DNA of 64,000 bases from Candidatus Bipolaricaulota bacterium. Lineage in GTDB: Bacteria > Bipolaricaulota > Bipolaricaulia > RBG-16-55-9 > DRXL01. Below, piece by piece: positions 58,395 to 63,639 of this stretch. Position 1 is the first letter of the stretch. The number at the start of each line of letters is the position of its first letter. Made by a program: the position numbers and the translations under genes. The notes beneath the pieces are model-generated. The model worked only from the letters and a program-made list of their open reading frames with translations. It was not told where the DNA came from and did not search any database. The stretch is from positions 1 through 64,000 of the forward strand of contig CALLJK010000009.1 of the NCBI GenBank assembly GCA_938091745.1, in the 5' to 3' direction.

Positions 58395-59066
58395 TTACCT
58401 CCTCCCAAAGGCCGATGGCCATAGGGCCAACGTAATGGCGGTCAGCAGAGCGCCAACCAACGCGAAGATTGGCGTGATAACCCATAAAAGAACAAGAACA
58501 ATGATAATTCCCACAAACGCAGCGCATGCTCCAACGGCTTGTAGGGTCGAAAGACCGTGCGCTTCCCTTACTGCGACAACACCTAGCATCAAGTTCCACA
58601 GAGATAGCCCTATATCGCTCACAGTTTTGAGCGCCTCACCCAAATCGCCCATGTCTTTCGTCAGCACTGTCAGGATGATTCTAACAATCCCCGGCAGCAC
58701 GCCAGCGAACCCTAAGGCGCTCAGCGTTTCGGGATAGCTCCCATTACCACCGAGGAGCCAACTGATCCAGTGCAAGGCTACAGACGATATCAGAAGGAGT
58801 ACCAGAACAATCGCTGTAGCCATCAATGCGGCCTTCAATGGCTTGTCGAAGAAAAACATCAATCGATACCCTAGTTCATAAGCTGTTCGATCAGTCCATG
58901 AGGCCAGTGCATACACAAAAGTCACGCTTGCGGTCAGGGCGATGGCCCAGCCTACAGGCTGTTGGCGGGCTACTCTTTGCAAGCCTTCGGCAGGATAGAG
59001 AAAGACCTGCCACATCAACGCACCAATCGATAGAGGACGATCCCCTATTGGCCCCAAAGCTTGCAT
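58395..59066 (-). CDS. YIP1-family membrane protein
   Basis: A 223-residue protein with five helices and an N-terminal cytoplasmic segment (FLYPAEGLQRVARQQPVGWA) typical of bacterial YIP1 domains; SALGFAGVLPGIVRIILTVL is the conserved central part. Function in bacteria is not established. A strong AAGGAGGAG supports the ATG at 59066, yet this start lies 176 nt inside the end of the sppA frame. Confidence 0.68.
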   Translation of the reverse strand: MQALGPIGDRPLSIGALMWQVFLYPAEGLQRVARQQPVGWAIALTASVTFVYALASWTDRTAYELGYRLMFFFDKPLKAALMATAIVLVLLLISSVALHWISWLLGGNGSYPETLSALGFAGVLPGIVRIILTVLTKDMGDLGEALKTVSDIGLSLWNLMLGVVAVREAHGLSTLQAVGACAAFVGIIIVLVLLWVITPIFALVGALLTAITLALWPSAFGRR

Positions 59067-60015
59067 TAGCGGGCTCCTCCTTCCCTTGTCTCAAATATCG
59101 TGGCACGGCGTGCCAGCCCTCTAGCGCCCGCAAGAGATAGAGCACTTCTGGCTTGAGCTCGCTCAGCACCGTATTTGTAGCACTCCCCCGGCCAAAAAGC
59201 AAATCGAGCAGCCCCGGCGCCGGCGGACGATACTCGATCACTTCAGCTTCGGGAACACCAGCTAAGTCTCGCGCTGCTTGCACAGCATCTTCAAGACCCC
59301 CTAATTGATCGATCAGCCCAAGCTGCACCGCTTGACTGCCTGTATAGGGCTGCCCCGTCGCCAGCTCCCGCACCCTTTCAATGGGGAGCTTGCGCCCCTC
59401 AGCAACAGCGTTCACGAACTGCTCATAAAACTCGTCTACGTACTGCTGGAGCAAGACGCGCTCTTCGTCACTGAGCGGACGCAGCCCACGAAAGATGTCC
59501 TTGTACTTCCCCGACTTAAAAATCTCTGGCTGGATGCCCAAGTTCTTCAGCAGATCTTCAACGGAGAAGAGCAGCGCGATGACCCCAATGCTGCCTGTTG
59601 TCGTCCCCGGATGGGCAATAATTTTATCAGCGTAGAGCGAGATATAGTATCCCCCAGAAGCAGCAATATCGCCCATCGAGACGACGACGGGCTTCTTCGT
59701 GTTCTCTTTAAATTTTTTGATGCTCTCGGCGATGGCTTGTGAGGCTGCTACTGTGCCGCCAGGGCTGTCTATGCGTAGGACCAAAGCTTTGACGGAGAGG
59801 TCGCGCTCAGCTCGCTTCAGCAGCCCCTCGACTTGAGCTGGTGTGATGCCGCCTCCACCGAAGAGCCCGGTATCGAGAGACTCACTGATGGGGCCACTCA
59901 AGCGCGCGAGTGCGACCTTGGGGCGCATACTGAAAGCGATCTGCTGCGCTGCGACATAGATCACATAAATCCCGATGAGAATGAGAATGACCCACAAAAT
60001 GCGCCGTCCGCGCAT
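58891..60015 (-). CDS. sppA: Signal peptide peptidase SppA, extended at its C-terminus
   Basis: A 374-residue membrane-anchored serine protease (one N-terminal helix, about 5-28) of the short SppA type. It shows LRIDSPGGTVAASQAIAES, the nucleophile region MGDIAASGGYYISL, and the general-base lysine in KSGKYKDIFR. Normal short SppA ends at about 300-320; here the frame runs on for about 57 residues that overlap the next gene in another frame, and that tail (rich in Arg, Ser, Cys) does not look conserved. Its own AGGAGGTGG precedes the start. It degrades leftover signal peptides and membrane fragments. Confidence 0.88.
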   Translation of the reverse strand: MRGRRILWVILILIGIYVIYVAAQQIAFSMRPKVALARLSGPISESLDTGLFGGGGITPAQVEGLLKRAERDLSVKALVLRIDSPGGTVAASQAIAESIKKFKENTKKPVVVSMGDIAASGGYYISLYADKIIAHPGTTTGSIGVIALLFSVEDLLKNLGIQPEIFKSGKYKDIFRGLRPLSDEERVLLQQYVDEFYEQFVNAVAEGRKLPIERVRELATGQPYTGSQAVQLGLIDQLGGLEDAVQAARDLAGVPEAEVIEYRPPAPGLLDLLFGRGSATNTVLSELKPEVLYLLRALEGWHAVPRYLRQGKEEPANASFGANRGSSSIDWCVDVAGLSLSCRRLAKSSPPTACRLGHRPDRKRDFCVCTGLMD

Positions 60016-60027
60016 AGGCCACCTCCT

Positions 60028-60978
60028 TTACGGCAAACATACCTCGCCTACAAACCTGCCAGATCTGTTGTTCCCCGTGATTATATTCTCGCCCTCAAAA
60101 ACAACCTTACCAGTGAACTCATCGCGTTCATATCCGCATTTGCGGAGTCGAGCTGCTACTCCCCAATCCCAGTTGTTCGCGATGCGCGAATTGCTGATCA
60201 CTATCTCAGCTTGGTCGCCTACCTCGACACCAGAGCATATTGAAAAGAACACACAAATCTGATGATCCGTTCCGTTGTTTTCTATTGCGCTTTCGCGAAT
60301 CTCCAAGTGGGCTAAGCCACCAGCTGTCAAGCCTATCCTCCTATTACCAGCGACAACAGATTTCTCAAGAGCAATATGCGTAGACTCTTCCCCAACCCCT
60401 GCGCTGATCCCGATGTCGTTATCTAGGATGCGTGAATTCACTAGGTTCAGCTTAGCGTCTCCTCCTAGGACCATAATGCCACCAAGCTTAGCTCCCATCA
60501 CTTGGGAATCAGTAAGTGTTACCGTGACTTGCCAGTAAAGTATCAATCCAAATACAGAACCCGATACCGTCGTTTTCGCGAGGTCTACGATAGCGTTCTC
60601 TAGGATATACATTCCGGCCGCTCGGACATGAACATCTTGGATGGTGGTGCGAATTGGCCCTCGAATCACAACGCCCTCGATGCTGAGCCCTTGAATCACG
60701 ACAATAATAGGTAGCTCAGCCCAAGCCATTGCTGTTGATCTGATGATGGTTCTCTCGGCTCCGGCTCCGCGAATCGTGATATCCTTCTGGATGAGAAAGC
60801 CATCATTCCATGTGCCTTCCTCAAGGCATATGACTGCTCCTGGCGCTGCTTCCTCAATGGCCTTCTGGAGCGAGTCTTCTGGTTTGAGCGTCACGGTACA
60901 GTCTGGCTGGGGTTGCATCGCCATGCCTGTCCAGCTAACGAAGACAACCGCGAGAACTACTAAGTACAGTCTTTGCAT
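60028..60978 (-). CDS. Secreted right-handed beta-helix protein
   Basis: A 316-residue exported protein: signal peptide (about 1-20), then parallel beta-helix coils with the usual LQKAIEEAAPGAVICLEEGTW opening, KDITIRGAGAERTII, and Asn-ladder turns (SRILDNDIGISAG, SAIENNG, SRIANNWDWG). Six cysteines near the ends may form disulphides. Such folds bind or cut polysaccharides; no pectate-lyase catalytic set is evident. It shares the fold with part of the lipoprotein at 8822. AGGAGG precedes the start. Confidence 0.78.
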   Translation of the reverse strand: MQRLYLVVLAVVFVSWTGMAMQPQPDCTVTLKPEDSLQKAIEEAAPGAVICLEEGTWNDGFLIQKDITIRGAGAERTIIRSTAMAWAELPIIVVIQGLSIEGVVIRGPIRTTIQDVHVRAAGMYILENAIVDLAKTTVSGSVFGLILYWQVTVTLTDSQVMGAKLGGIMVLGGDAKLNLVNSRILDNDIGISAGVGEESTHIALEKSVVAGNRRIGLTAGGLAHLEIRESAIENNGTDHQICVFFSICSGVEVGDQAEIVISNSRIANNWDWGVAARLRKCGYERDEFTGKVVFEGENIITGNNRSGRFVGEVCLP

Positions 60979-60996: not shown

Positions 60997-63639
60997 TTAA
61001 AGCCCTACCCGAAACTCGCGCTCGAAGCGCACGCTCCAGCCTACCTGTGCGCCCTCTTGCGTATTTACCCACAAGGGATATTCTACATACACAATGGGCG
61101 ATCCGTAAAACCCGAGCGTCACGCCAAGACCCGCCTCGGCGCGCACAACGTGTTGCTCGGCCTTCAGAATAGCTACGTTCACAAATGCAATCGCGCCCAC
61201 TGAGAACGGGATTGGCCCAATGTCGATCTTGTTAAGCGTCGGGATGGGCAGGCGCAGCTCGTTAGACTGCGCGAAGACCCAGTCGCTCTGAAGGTCAAAT
61301 GCGCGAAAGCCCGCAAAATCTTTAAGCCGAAAATCGCGCTCTTCGGGAGCGCGCCCCTCGCGCCAGCCCCATACGGTGCGCTGCACCCAGAGCGTCTGCC
61401 ACCACAGGCGCGTGCGAATCTCGTGACTCCACGAGAACTTCTGAAATGCATACTCCCTGCCCCACACGTTCAGACCCAGCTTATAGCTTAGAGCAAGCCG
61501 TGCGACCCGCGAGCGGCGTTCGTAACTCATCCCTATGGAGAAAAGACGCCCCGGATCGCGCGCGACGTTATAGCGATTATGATACAAAGCGTTGAGCGAG
61601 AGCTGCACGTCTGTCCTATCGCGGTGCCAACGGAAGTGAATCACCCCGTCACCCGCGAAGATATGACCTTCATCTTTTTGGGCGAAGCCCCATTCTGAAG
61701 TGCAGCGATCCGCGAAGCAGAAGTTGCTCTTCAAGCTGTGCTGAAAGACAATTCTCTCAAGGCCAAACGCCCACCCTACGTGTATATGCTCCAATCGTAT
61801 GCCCAAGATCAGCCCATCGTCTGAACGACCGTGGAGCATCCCGTGATCGAGCCACGGGCTGAGATCAAGACCCTTGGGAGCAAAGTTATCCGAGCGATCC
61901 AAATCGGGCAGCGCGTGATCGGGGTCGAGCGTCACGGACTTTATGGGTTTGTCAGAGATGAACGTGAGCGTTCCCCGTCGGTCAAGCATCTCCCAGCGCT
62001 GGCGGACTTTCGTGCCGTCGGCGAGCGTCGCCTCGACGTCCACGGGGATGCGCATCTCGCCCCGCTGACGCACCATCACGCGCGTCACGTATCTGTTCTC
62101 AATCTTCTGTGTCCTCATTCCCTCGAGAGTCACGTCGAGCGTCTTGGTGCTGGTGAGCCACTGCGCGAAGAACTCTCTCAGATCGCGCCCGCTGACATCT
62201 TCAGCTGTTTTTATGAAATCTTCGGCTGTGACTTGCCGGTAGCGATAGCGCCGATAGTACTCTTGCATAATCTGATCAAATGTTTCCGTGCCCACTACGT
62301 TTTCTAACGCAAAGAGCAGGAGCGCGCCCTTCTGGTAGGGCAGCACGGTTTTGCCCGATGGGACTTTATGGAGCGGGGTAGCAAGCGGAGCTTCACGGCC
62401 CTCGCGGGCGACGCGTGTGTAGCTGCTTAGCATTTCTGCACGCCCGTTGCTCTCCTTCAGCATCTCGGTGAGCAAACCCAGACCCTGAGCTTTTAACCAA
62501 AGAGTATTCAAAGAGTTTGCGTCCTTCCCGTACTTGTGCTCGATGTAGCTCGTTTCAGCAAACGTGGCAAAGCCCTCGTCGAGCCAAGTCTCCTCGAGCT
62601 GATTGTTCATAAACATCCCGTAGAACCATTGGTGCGCCGTCTCATGGGCCGTGACGCTGTCTAAGATAGTAAACAGCTCAGGGAGGCGATAGAGCATATA
62701 GCTCTGCTGAATGATCTGAGGGTACTCCATAGCGAAGCCAAAGCCGCGAATTTCAGCGACTGTAAAATTAGAGTACGGATAGCGCCCGAAGCGCTTGCTG
62801 AAATATTCAAGAGCGTCTTTAGCGTACTGGGCAGCACGTTTGCCCGCTGCAGCGTCTTCGGGGAAGTACAGAGAGACAATCGTGACGTCCTCCCATTGGA
62901 CGATCTCGCTTTGATAACGGGCGTCGGCGACCCACGCAAAGTCGTGCACGTTATCAGCGATATATGTGAGCGTCTTGGTGCCGTCGGGGTTCACAGTCTC
63001 ACGATAGAGCTGGCCCGTCGCGCCGACGACGAAATTATTGGGCACGGTCAGTTCTACAGAATAGTGCGCGAAGTCTTCATAGGGTTCGCTCGCGCCGAAC
63101 GCATGGGCGACGTCGGGGTGCCAGCCCTTCTGATCATAGACGCTCAGTTTGGGGTACCACCAAGAGATATAGTAATTGCCCTGATCGTGCCCGAGACGCT
63201 CGAGCGCATGGGGAATCTTAACGATAAACTTTATTGTGATCTCGACGGTCTGATCGGGGGCGATGGGCGTCTCCAGTGCGATCTTCAGAATCGTGTCATC
63301 AATAGAGTACTGAGCTGCTTTGCCGTCGAGCTGCAGCTCTTGCACGAAGAGATACCCATAATCGGGGCCGTTGGGGAAGAGCATATCGAAAGAATTTGCG
63401 CCCATCTCGCGGGCTTGGACGCTCTCTTCAACAAAGCGATTGGGCCATAGGTGCAGATAGAGTTCTGTGAGGGGCTTGTCGGCCTTGCTGGTGAAGAGAA
63501 TTCTTTCGTTGCCGTAGAGTTTATGTTCTTTGATGTCGAGCCGTGCTTGGATCTCGTAGGAAATCTCGTTGGGGAGAGCAAGAACCGTCGTCCCAAGCCA
63601 TGCCAGAGATACGAGAGCGAGAACAAGACTGTTGCGCAT
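60997..63639 (-). CDS. M1 metallopeptidase fused to an outer-membrane-type barrel
   Basis: 880 residues. Signal peptide (about 1-22), an M1 N-terminal beta domain (about 25-215), then the catalytic domain with GFAMEY (301-306, a variant of GAMEN), HETAHQW (332-338) and the third zinc ligand Glu355 in TWLDEGFA, plus the catalytic tyrosine in PYQKGALLL (Tyr435). After a linker (about 500-600) come 280 residues of amphipathic strands: SIGMSYERRSRVARLALSY, a GFRAF motif, SNELRLPIP, VGAIAFVNVA and GLGVTLGFYGSPIVYVEYPL, which recalls the C-terminal half of an Omp85/BamA barrel. AGGAGG precedes the start; a minus-strand TTGACA at 63689-63694 is a possible -35. Confidence 0.8.
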   Translation of the reverse strand: MRNSLVLALVSLAWLGTTVLALPNEISYEIQARLDIKEHKLYGNERILFTSKADKPLTELYLHLWPNRFVEESVQAREMGANSFDMLFPNGPDYGYLFVQELQLDGKAAQYSIDDTILKIALETPIAPDQTVEITIKFIVKIPHALERLGHDQGNYYISWWYPKLSVYDQKGWHPDVAHAFGASEPYEDFAHYSVELTVPNNFVVGATGQLYRETVNPDGTKTLTYIADNVHDFAWVADARYQSEIVQWEDVTIVSLYFPEDAAAGKRAAQYAKDALEYFSKRFGRYPYSNFTVAEIRGFGFAMEYPQIIQQSYMLYRLPELFTILDSVTAHETAHQWFYGMFMNNQLEETWLDEGFATFAETSYIEHKYGKDANSLNTLWLKAQGLGLLTEMLKESNGRAEMLSSYTRVAREGREAPLATPLHKVPSGKTVLPYQKGALLLFALENVVGTETFDQIMQEYYRRYRYRQVTAEDFIKTAEDVSGRDLREFFAQWLTSTKTLDVTLEGMRTQKIENRYVTRVMVRQRGEMRIPVDVEATLADGTKVRQRWEMLDRRGTLTFISDKPIKSVTLDPDHALPDLDRSDNFAPKGLDLSPWLDHGMLHGRSDDGLILGIRLEHIHVGWAFGLERIVFQHSLKSNFCFADRCTSEWGFAQKDEGHIFAGDGVIHFRWHRDRTDVQLSLNALYHNRYNVARDPGRLFSIGMSYERRSRVARLALSYKLGLNVWGREYAFQKFSWSHEIRTRLWWQTLWVQRTVWGWREGRAPEERDFRLKDFAGFRAFDLQSDWVFAQSNELRLPIPTLNKIDIGPIPFSVGAIAFVNVAILKAEQHVVRAEAGLGVTLGFYGSPIVYVEYPLWVNTQEGAQVGWSVRFEREFRVGL

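Follow-up and report, generated by a model that had tools for sequence, protein, structure and literature searches.

In a genome of Candidatus Bipolaricaulota (G000; 1.74 Mb, 32 contigs), a single gene encodes a complete M1 zinc metallopeptidase core followed by a C-terminal beta-barrel of the Omp85 type, with the catalytic set intact and the fusion conserved in relatives. We regard its 880-residue product (P0001) as probably an outer-membrane-anchored M1 peptidase, its core sitting at the periplasmic mouth of the barrel, where it would trim peptides. The periplasmic side, the aminopeptidase activity and the substrate we infer, as we do the role of the barrel as an anchor or peptide channel rather than an insertase. 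Our search of the open-access literature found no description of an M1-Omp85 fusion. The combination seems to be new, while an enzyme on an Omp85 barrel is already known as a kind.

The fused gene and its M1 peptidase core

The gene is encoded on the minus strand at 63639-60997 (60997..63639, stop codon included) of the window, that is, of the whole 64,000-nucleotide stretch of DNA that was analysed, and was delimited from the open reading frame (ORF) listing and orthologues. The original prediction had named no strand. The gene is uninterrupted from an ATG start, and all features given below for it lie on the same strand. The chain opens with a predicted Sec-type signal peptide, continues with the complete M1 core and ends in a 300-residue C-terminal module; the whole-chain AlphaFold model has a pLDDT of 82 and a pTM of 0.81. 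The signal peptide is predicted at residues 1-21 (MRNSLVLALVSLAWLGTTVLA; 63577..63639) from its hydrophobic sequence and from a helix at residues 2-19 in the model.

The nearest named relatives are proteins of the MAGs SKYB55 (84% identity) and HOT.Cluster.56 (81%). As the original prediction had proposed, the M1 part and the C-terminal module occupy one 880-residue ORF, and the join is kept in orthologues: a look into related genomes, which it had recommended, recovered the fused full length at 81-84% identity within the genus and at 40-47% in other Bipolaricaulota families. In the sister species (L001/L012), identity over the fused length is 84%, and the codon changes between P0001 and L012 comprise 162 synonymous and 73 nonsynonymous ones in the M1 half and 85 and 58, respectively, in the C-terminal module. 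A chance ORF is ruled out by the orthologues of full fused length together with the mostly synonymous codon changes in both halves. Nor is the fusion a product of misassembly, since fused relatives sit on separately assembled contigs.

The M1 part begins with an N-terminal beta domain (about residues 22-258; 62866..63576), which is modelled mostly at pLDDT >90 and matches the folds of ERAP1, IRAP and PepN. It is followed by the catalytic domain (about residues 259-500; 62140..62865), supported by Pfam, the model and the fold search, and by a third domain, a beta-sandwich (about residues 501-575; 61915..62139), recognised from the model and the fold search. Pfam Peptidase_M1 (PF01433) matched residues 272-494 (2e-21; 77.1 bits against a cut-off of 27.7), and a PDB fold search matched ERAP1, IRAP and E. 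coli PepN over about 600 columns (1e-26 to 1e-23).

The catalytic motifs from which the M1 assignment was originally made are all in place, namely the zinc-binding HExxH within HETAHQW (residues 332-338; 62626..62646), the third zinc ligand Glu355 (62575..62577) and the transition-state tyrosine Tyr435 of a YxKG motif (62335..62337). H332, E333, H336, E355 and Y435, which make up HExxH-x18-E and the catalytic Tyr, are invariant among 62 fused relatives. The alignment further identifies a GxME-type motif, MEYP (residues 304-307; 62719..62730), with Glu305. Present in the P0001 clade (AMEYP), with A, T or S at its position in 55 of the 62 sequences, this residue presumably binds the substrate N-terminus, a role that we take from known M1 enzymes. 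P0001 has domains I-III, GxME, HExxH-x18-E and the catalytic Tyr in common with the M1 aminopeptidases PepN, ERAP1, LTA4H and ColAP; unlike these, it has no domain IV and carries the barrel instead. Judging from the model, the M1 part would correspond to domains I-III, with the barrel standing where long M1 enzymes carry the helical domain IV.

The C-terminal module and its relation to Omp85

Structure prediction of the C-terminal part, a check that the original prediction had called for, yielded a 16-stranded barrel. The barrel-only AlphaFold model (residues 585-880), built from 61 aligned modules, has a pLDDT of 78 and a pTM of 0.72, and reproduces the Omp85 arrangement, in which strand 11 is joined to strand 12 by a long loop and five strands follow. 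From the model and the profile link to Omp85 described below, we place the barrel at about residues 591-880 (61000..61869); its first strands are poorly modelled in the full-length model (pLDDT 32-60 for residues 590-690). In the fold search of the barrel, all 50 PDB matches listed were Omp85 proteins (BamA, TamA, Sam50), with a best E-value of 1.9e-6 and TM-scores of about 0.5; a soluble beta-sandwich was rejected on this ground. No POTRA domain was found by the Pfam scan of P0001 or in the full-length model.

Omp85 proteins carry an RGF motif, (V/I)RG(F/Y), in the loop that leads from strand 11 to strand 12. The GFRAF pattern that had first suggested a barrel of this kind falls at the position of this L6 motif (residues 777-781; 61297..61311), and the accompanying NELRLPIP pattern falls in strand 12 (residues 793-800; 61240..61263), both located by alignment and model; Pro798 of the latter is invariant or nearly so. 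F778, R779 and F781 are invariant in the six closest relatives, and the P0001 clade (GFRAF/FRTF) keeps the Arg but not the RG order. The loop bears on whether the barrel could itself be an Omp85 insertase or translocase, with the M1 domain in place of POTRA to receive, proof or trim clients. Most Omp85 barrels serve in protein assembly or translocation, R779 is kept in the P0001 clade, and an SppA neighbour is present in the genus, all of which would suit such a role. However, the sister clade, which accounts for by far the most members of the family, has lost the arginine motif, its loop having the consensus FxLxELxSF; moreover, the genome already has a canonical BamA, and P0001 lacks a POTRA domain by Pfam scan. 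We therefore consider an assembly factor unlikely and prefer an anchor or peptide channel for the M1 core.

At the sequence level, PF01103, the family against which a search had been proposed, matched neither P0001 nor any of its 21 aligned relatives at the curated cut-off, and searches of Pfam, NCBIfam and PDB sequences with the C-terminal module gave no match. The original prediction had named the lack of an Omp85-like match as evidence against itself, and on this ground alone the barrel claim would fall, because PF01103 misses the module; the more sensitive evidence opposes this. We attribute the miss to limited sensitivity. Comparison of the sister-clade module profile with the phylum's own BamA barrels yielded a score of 50.1, against at most 30.0 for 60 block-shuffles and 14-16 for reversed profiles, and comparison of the P0001-clade module with the sister-clade module yielded 43.2 (shuffles at most 23.1). 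Compared with BamA directly, the six-sequence P0001-clade module scored 24.7, which is not significant, with shuffles reaching up to 28.9. Since this direct match lies within the shuffle range, we do not rely on it by itself, and the sequence link of the P0001 clade to Omp85 is transitive, via the sister clade.

We also searched a profile of 61 modules across 291 genomes, 100 of them Bipolaricaulota and 191 more distant. Outside the phylum, it found one strong match, an M1-barrel protein (in G177), and weak matches elsewhere. As a check of specificity and not a census, 20 extra-phylum or non-M1 loci, picked from the matches listed and mostly the best of them, were scanned: 14 pass the PF01103 cut-off, including BamA with POTRA, POTRA-less Omp85 and propeller-Omp85 proteins, one passes the ShlB cut-off, and the remainder are four propeller proteins with an unassigned C-terminus and one M1-barrel protein. 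The reversed module profile matches none of these 20 loci. The HMMER module profile gave no match to the phylum's own BamA proteins, for which the link is the profile-profile comparison.

These data also weigh on convergence, by which a transmembrane barrel of another family would have come to resemble Omp85. Such an origin would sit well with the missing Pfam match and with the non-significant direct BamA match of the P0001 clade, but the profile of the sister clade aligns with BamA-type proteins elsewhere, correctly registered at the C-terminus, and every fold match listed is Omp85, which leaves convergence very improbable. Remote Omp85 membership of the module is supported by the agreement of predicted fold, fold search and profile search. 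The Omp85/BamA-like barrel originally proposed thus stands on these three lines, although PF01103 itself gives no match.

Distribution and history of the M1-barrel family

The profile search found the module in 94 of the 100 Bipolaricaulota genomes, almost always behind M1. With the architecture nearly universal in this poorly studied phylum, the fusion is no isolated oddity. The P0001 type is patchy (8 of the 100 phylum genomes). The sister M1-barrel type is found almost throughout the phylum and has two copies in G000 (L008, L009). G000 also has a fourth M1 paralogue, L007 on contig C12, which lacks a terminal barrel. A full sister-type M1-barrel protein of 926 aa also occurs outside the phylum (L125:2795-5572, in G177; profile E-value 9e-36).

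In a midpoint-rooted tree of the M1 core, sequences of the P0001 clade form a single group (support 100/99), as do those of the barrel-less clade (100/100). The two groups share one side of the tree with L005 from Bacteroidetes, and the sister M1-barrel type occupies the other. Because homologous barrels are found on both sides of this split, the barrel was either lost in the barrel-less clade or gained twice. Among the barrel-less M1 paralogues (L007, L019-L026), L020, L023 and L026 have a hydrophobic C-terminal stretch with basic residues after it, which might be another membrane anchor or a sorting tail. The long C-terminal tail of the Bacteroidetes M1 protein (L005:4920-8012, 1031 aa) gave no match to the barrel profile and may carry an unrelated barrel.

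The sister clade (L008:475-3285, L009:640-3441 and most rows of alignment A3) keeps HExxH-E-Y, while the Glu of GxMEN is changed to Ala, Thr or Ser (MAADG). Since the position of Glu305 is A, T or S, the sister type is not expected to show the usual binding of a free N-terminus, and it is predicted to have lost or changed its exopeptidase specificity.

Envelope context and membrane side

Two probable operon neighbours lie on the minus strand beside the M1-barrel gene. One encodes a secreted parallel beta-helix-like protein of 316 aa (60028..60978) and starts 18 bp after the M1-barrel stop; the other encodes an SppA-like signal peptide peptidase (S49-like; 58891..60015). The fold of the former was judged, and the latter was named, from sequence only. 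In L001 and L002, too, an SppA-like gene comes shortly after the M1-barrel gene; in two of the three cases, the beta-helix gene lies between them. In the window (58395-60015), the SppA-like ORF runs to 374 aa, compared with 309 aa for its L001 counterpart. About 175 bp of its tail are shared, in a different frame, with the next ORF; a frameshift or an altered stop is possible. In two further Bipolaricaulota families, ABC-2 transporter ATPase and permease genes instead lie beside the M1-barrel orthologue (L086:6388-10791, L087:7901-12341). The SppA and ABC-2 contexts both fit envelope peptide handling, and neither is conserved across the whole clade.

The BamA of G000 is a separate gene of 752 aa with a Skp-like gene adjoining, and an outer membrane is implied because the genome encodes both. 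A 2018 study of the phylum left its mono- or diderm state undecided (PMC6092417). The presence of BamA and the near-universality of the barrel family speak for a genuine outer membrane in Bipolaricaulota.

In an even-stranded Omp85 barrel, both ends lie in the periplasm, which is also where N-terminal domains such as POTRA are found. For PlpD, the nearest analogue that has been tested, export of the enzyme domain to the surface was long assumed, but the domain was shown to be exclusively periplasmic (PMC11116518). Since 16 strands put the barrel ends on the same side, and given the PlpD precedent, we place the M1 domain in the periplasm; the surface peptidase of the original prediction is not supported. 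Display at the surface would require the barrel to translocate the M1 domain to the cell exterior, a mechanism suggested earlier for type Vd secretion. For a long time, PlpD-type Omp85 proteins were believed to work in this way (PMC11116518), and a surface aminopeptidase could be of use to a peptide-scavenging organism. Yet a 16-stranded Omp85 barrel has its N-terminus on the periplasmic side, the PlpD domain itself stays there, and in the model a short linker connects the folded M1 core of 570 residues to the barrel behind it, so that we judge display to be improbable.

In the periplasmic arrangement that we favour, Sec would export the M1-barrel protein and BAM would insert its C-terminal 16-stranded Omp85-class barrel. 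The M1 core (domains I-III) would then be held at the periplasmic barrel mouth by a linker of about 15-20 residues, without POTRA. With an intact zinc site and the exopeptidase Glu305, the core would most likely trim N-terminal residues from periplasmic peptides, candidate substrates being peptides that enter across the outer membrane or are released from envelope proteins.

Several known proteins have a comparable layout. Like the patatin-like Omp85 proteins PlpD and FplA (type Vd), P0001 joins an N-terminal hydrolase to a C-terminal 16-stranded Omp85 barrel in one exported chain; unlike them, it has an M1 zinc peptidase in place of patatin and no POTRA between enzyme and barrel. The resemblance to PlpD is one of layout only, and the protein, without the patatin-like domain and POTRA, is no member of type Vd. 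It also differs from BamA in having neither a POTRA array nor a PF01103 match. WD40-Omp85 and Omp85-'Metallo' proteins likewise carry a non-POTRA N-terminal domain on an Omp85 barrel, which is a beta-propeller or a PF00149 domain and not M1 (Heinz and Lithgow 2014, PMC4104836). The ten subfamilies of that survey, including patatin, propeller and PF00149 ('Metallo') types, contain none with M1, and the words peptidase and aminopeptidase are absent from it (PMC4104836). Because the same survey accepted POTRA-less members (noNterm, WD40), a missing POTRA does not exclude membership of the Omp85 superfamily (PMC4104836). Peptidase_MA-PD40 propeller-Omp85 proteins (L129, L132, L133, L137) also have a peptidase-like N-terminal domain on an Omp85 barrel; they differ in peptidase family and in having a propeller between peptidase and barrel. 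A protein resembling these proteins of other phyla is encoded upstream of the SKYB55 orthologue (L001:1540-4368; 942 aa, with HExxH as HEIGH, propeller repeats and a barrel-like C-terminus with LRGF) and was not seen beside the window's gene.

Tentatively, the M1-barrel proteins could be an undescribed Omp85 subfamily, ancestral and near-universal in Bipolaricaulota, in which a POTRA-less barrel either anchors a periplasmic M1 enzyme in the outer membrane or acts as its peptide channel, with incoming peptides trimmed at the barrel mouth; most members, without the exopeptidase Glu, may be endopeptidases or binders. With P0001, the short list of enzymes and other domains carried on Omp85 barrels (patatin, PF00149 domain, propellers) gains a zinc peptidase, and the M1-barrel family offers a convenient means of testing whether, as has been proposed, the Omp85 scaffold was reused beyond assembly and secretion.
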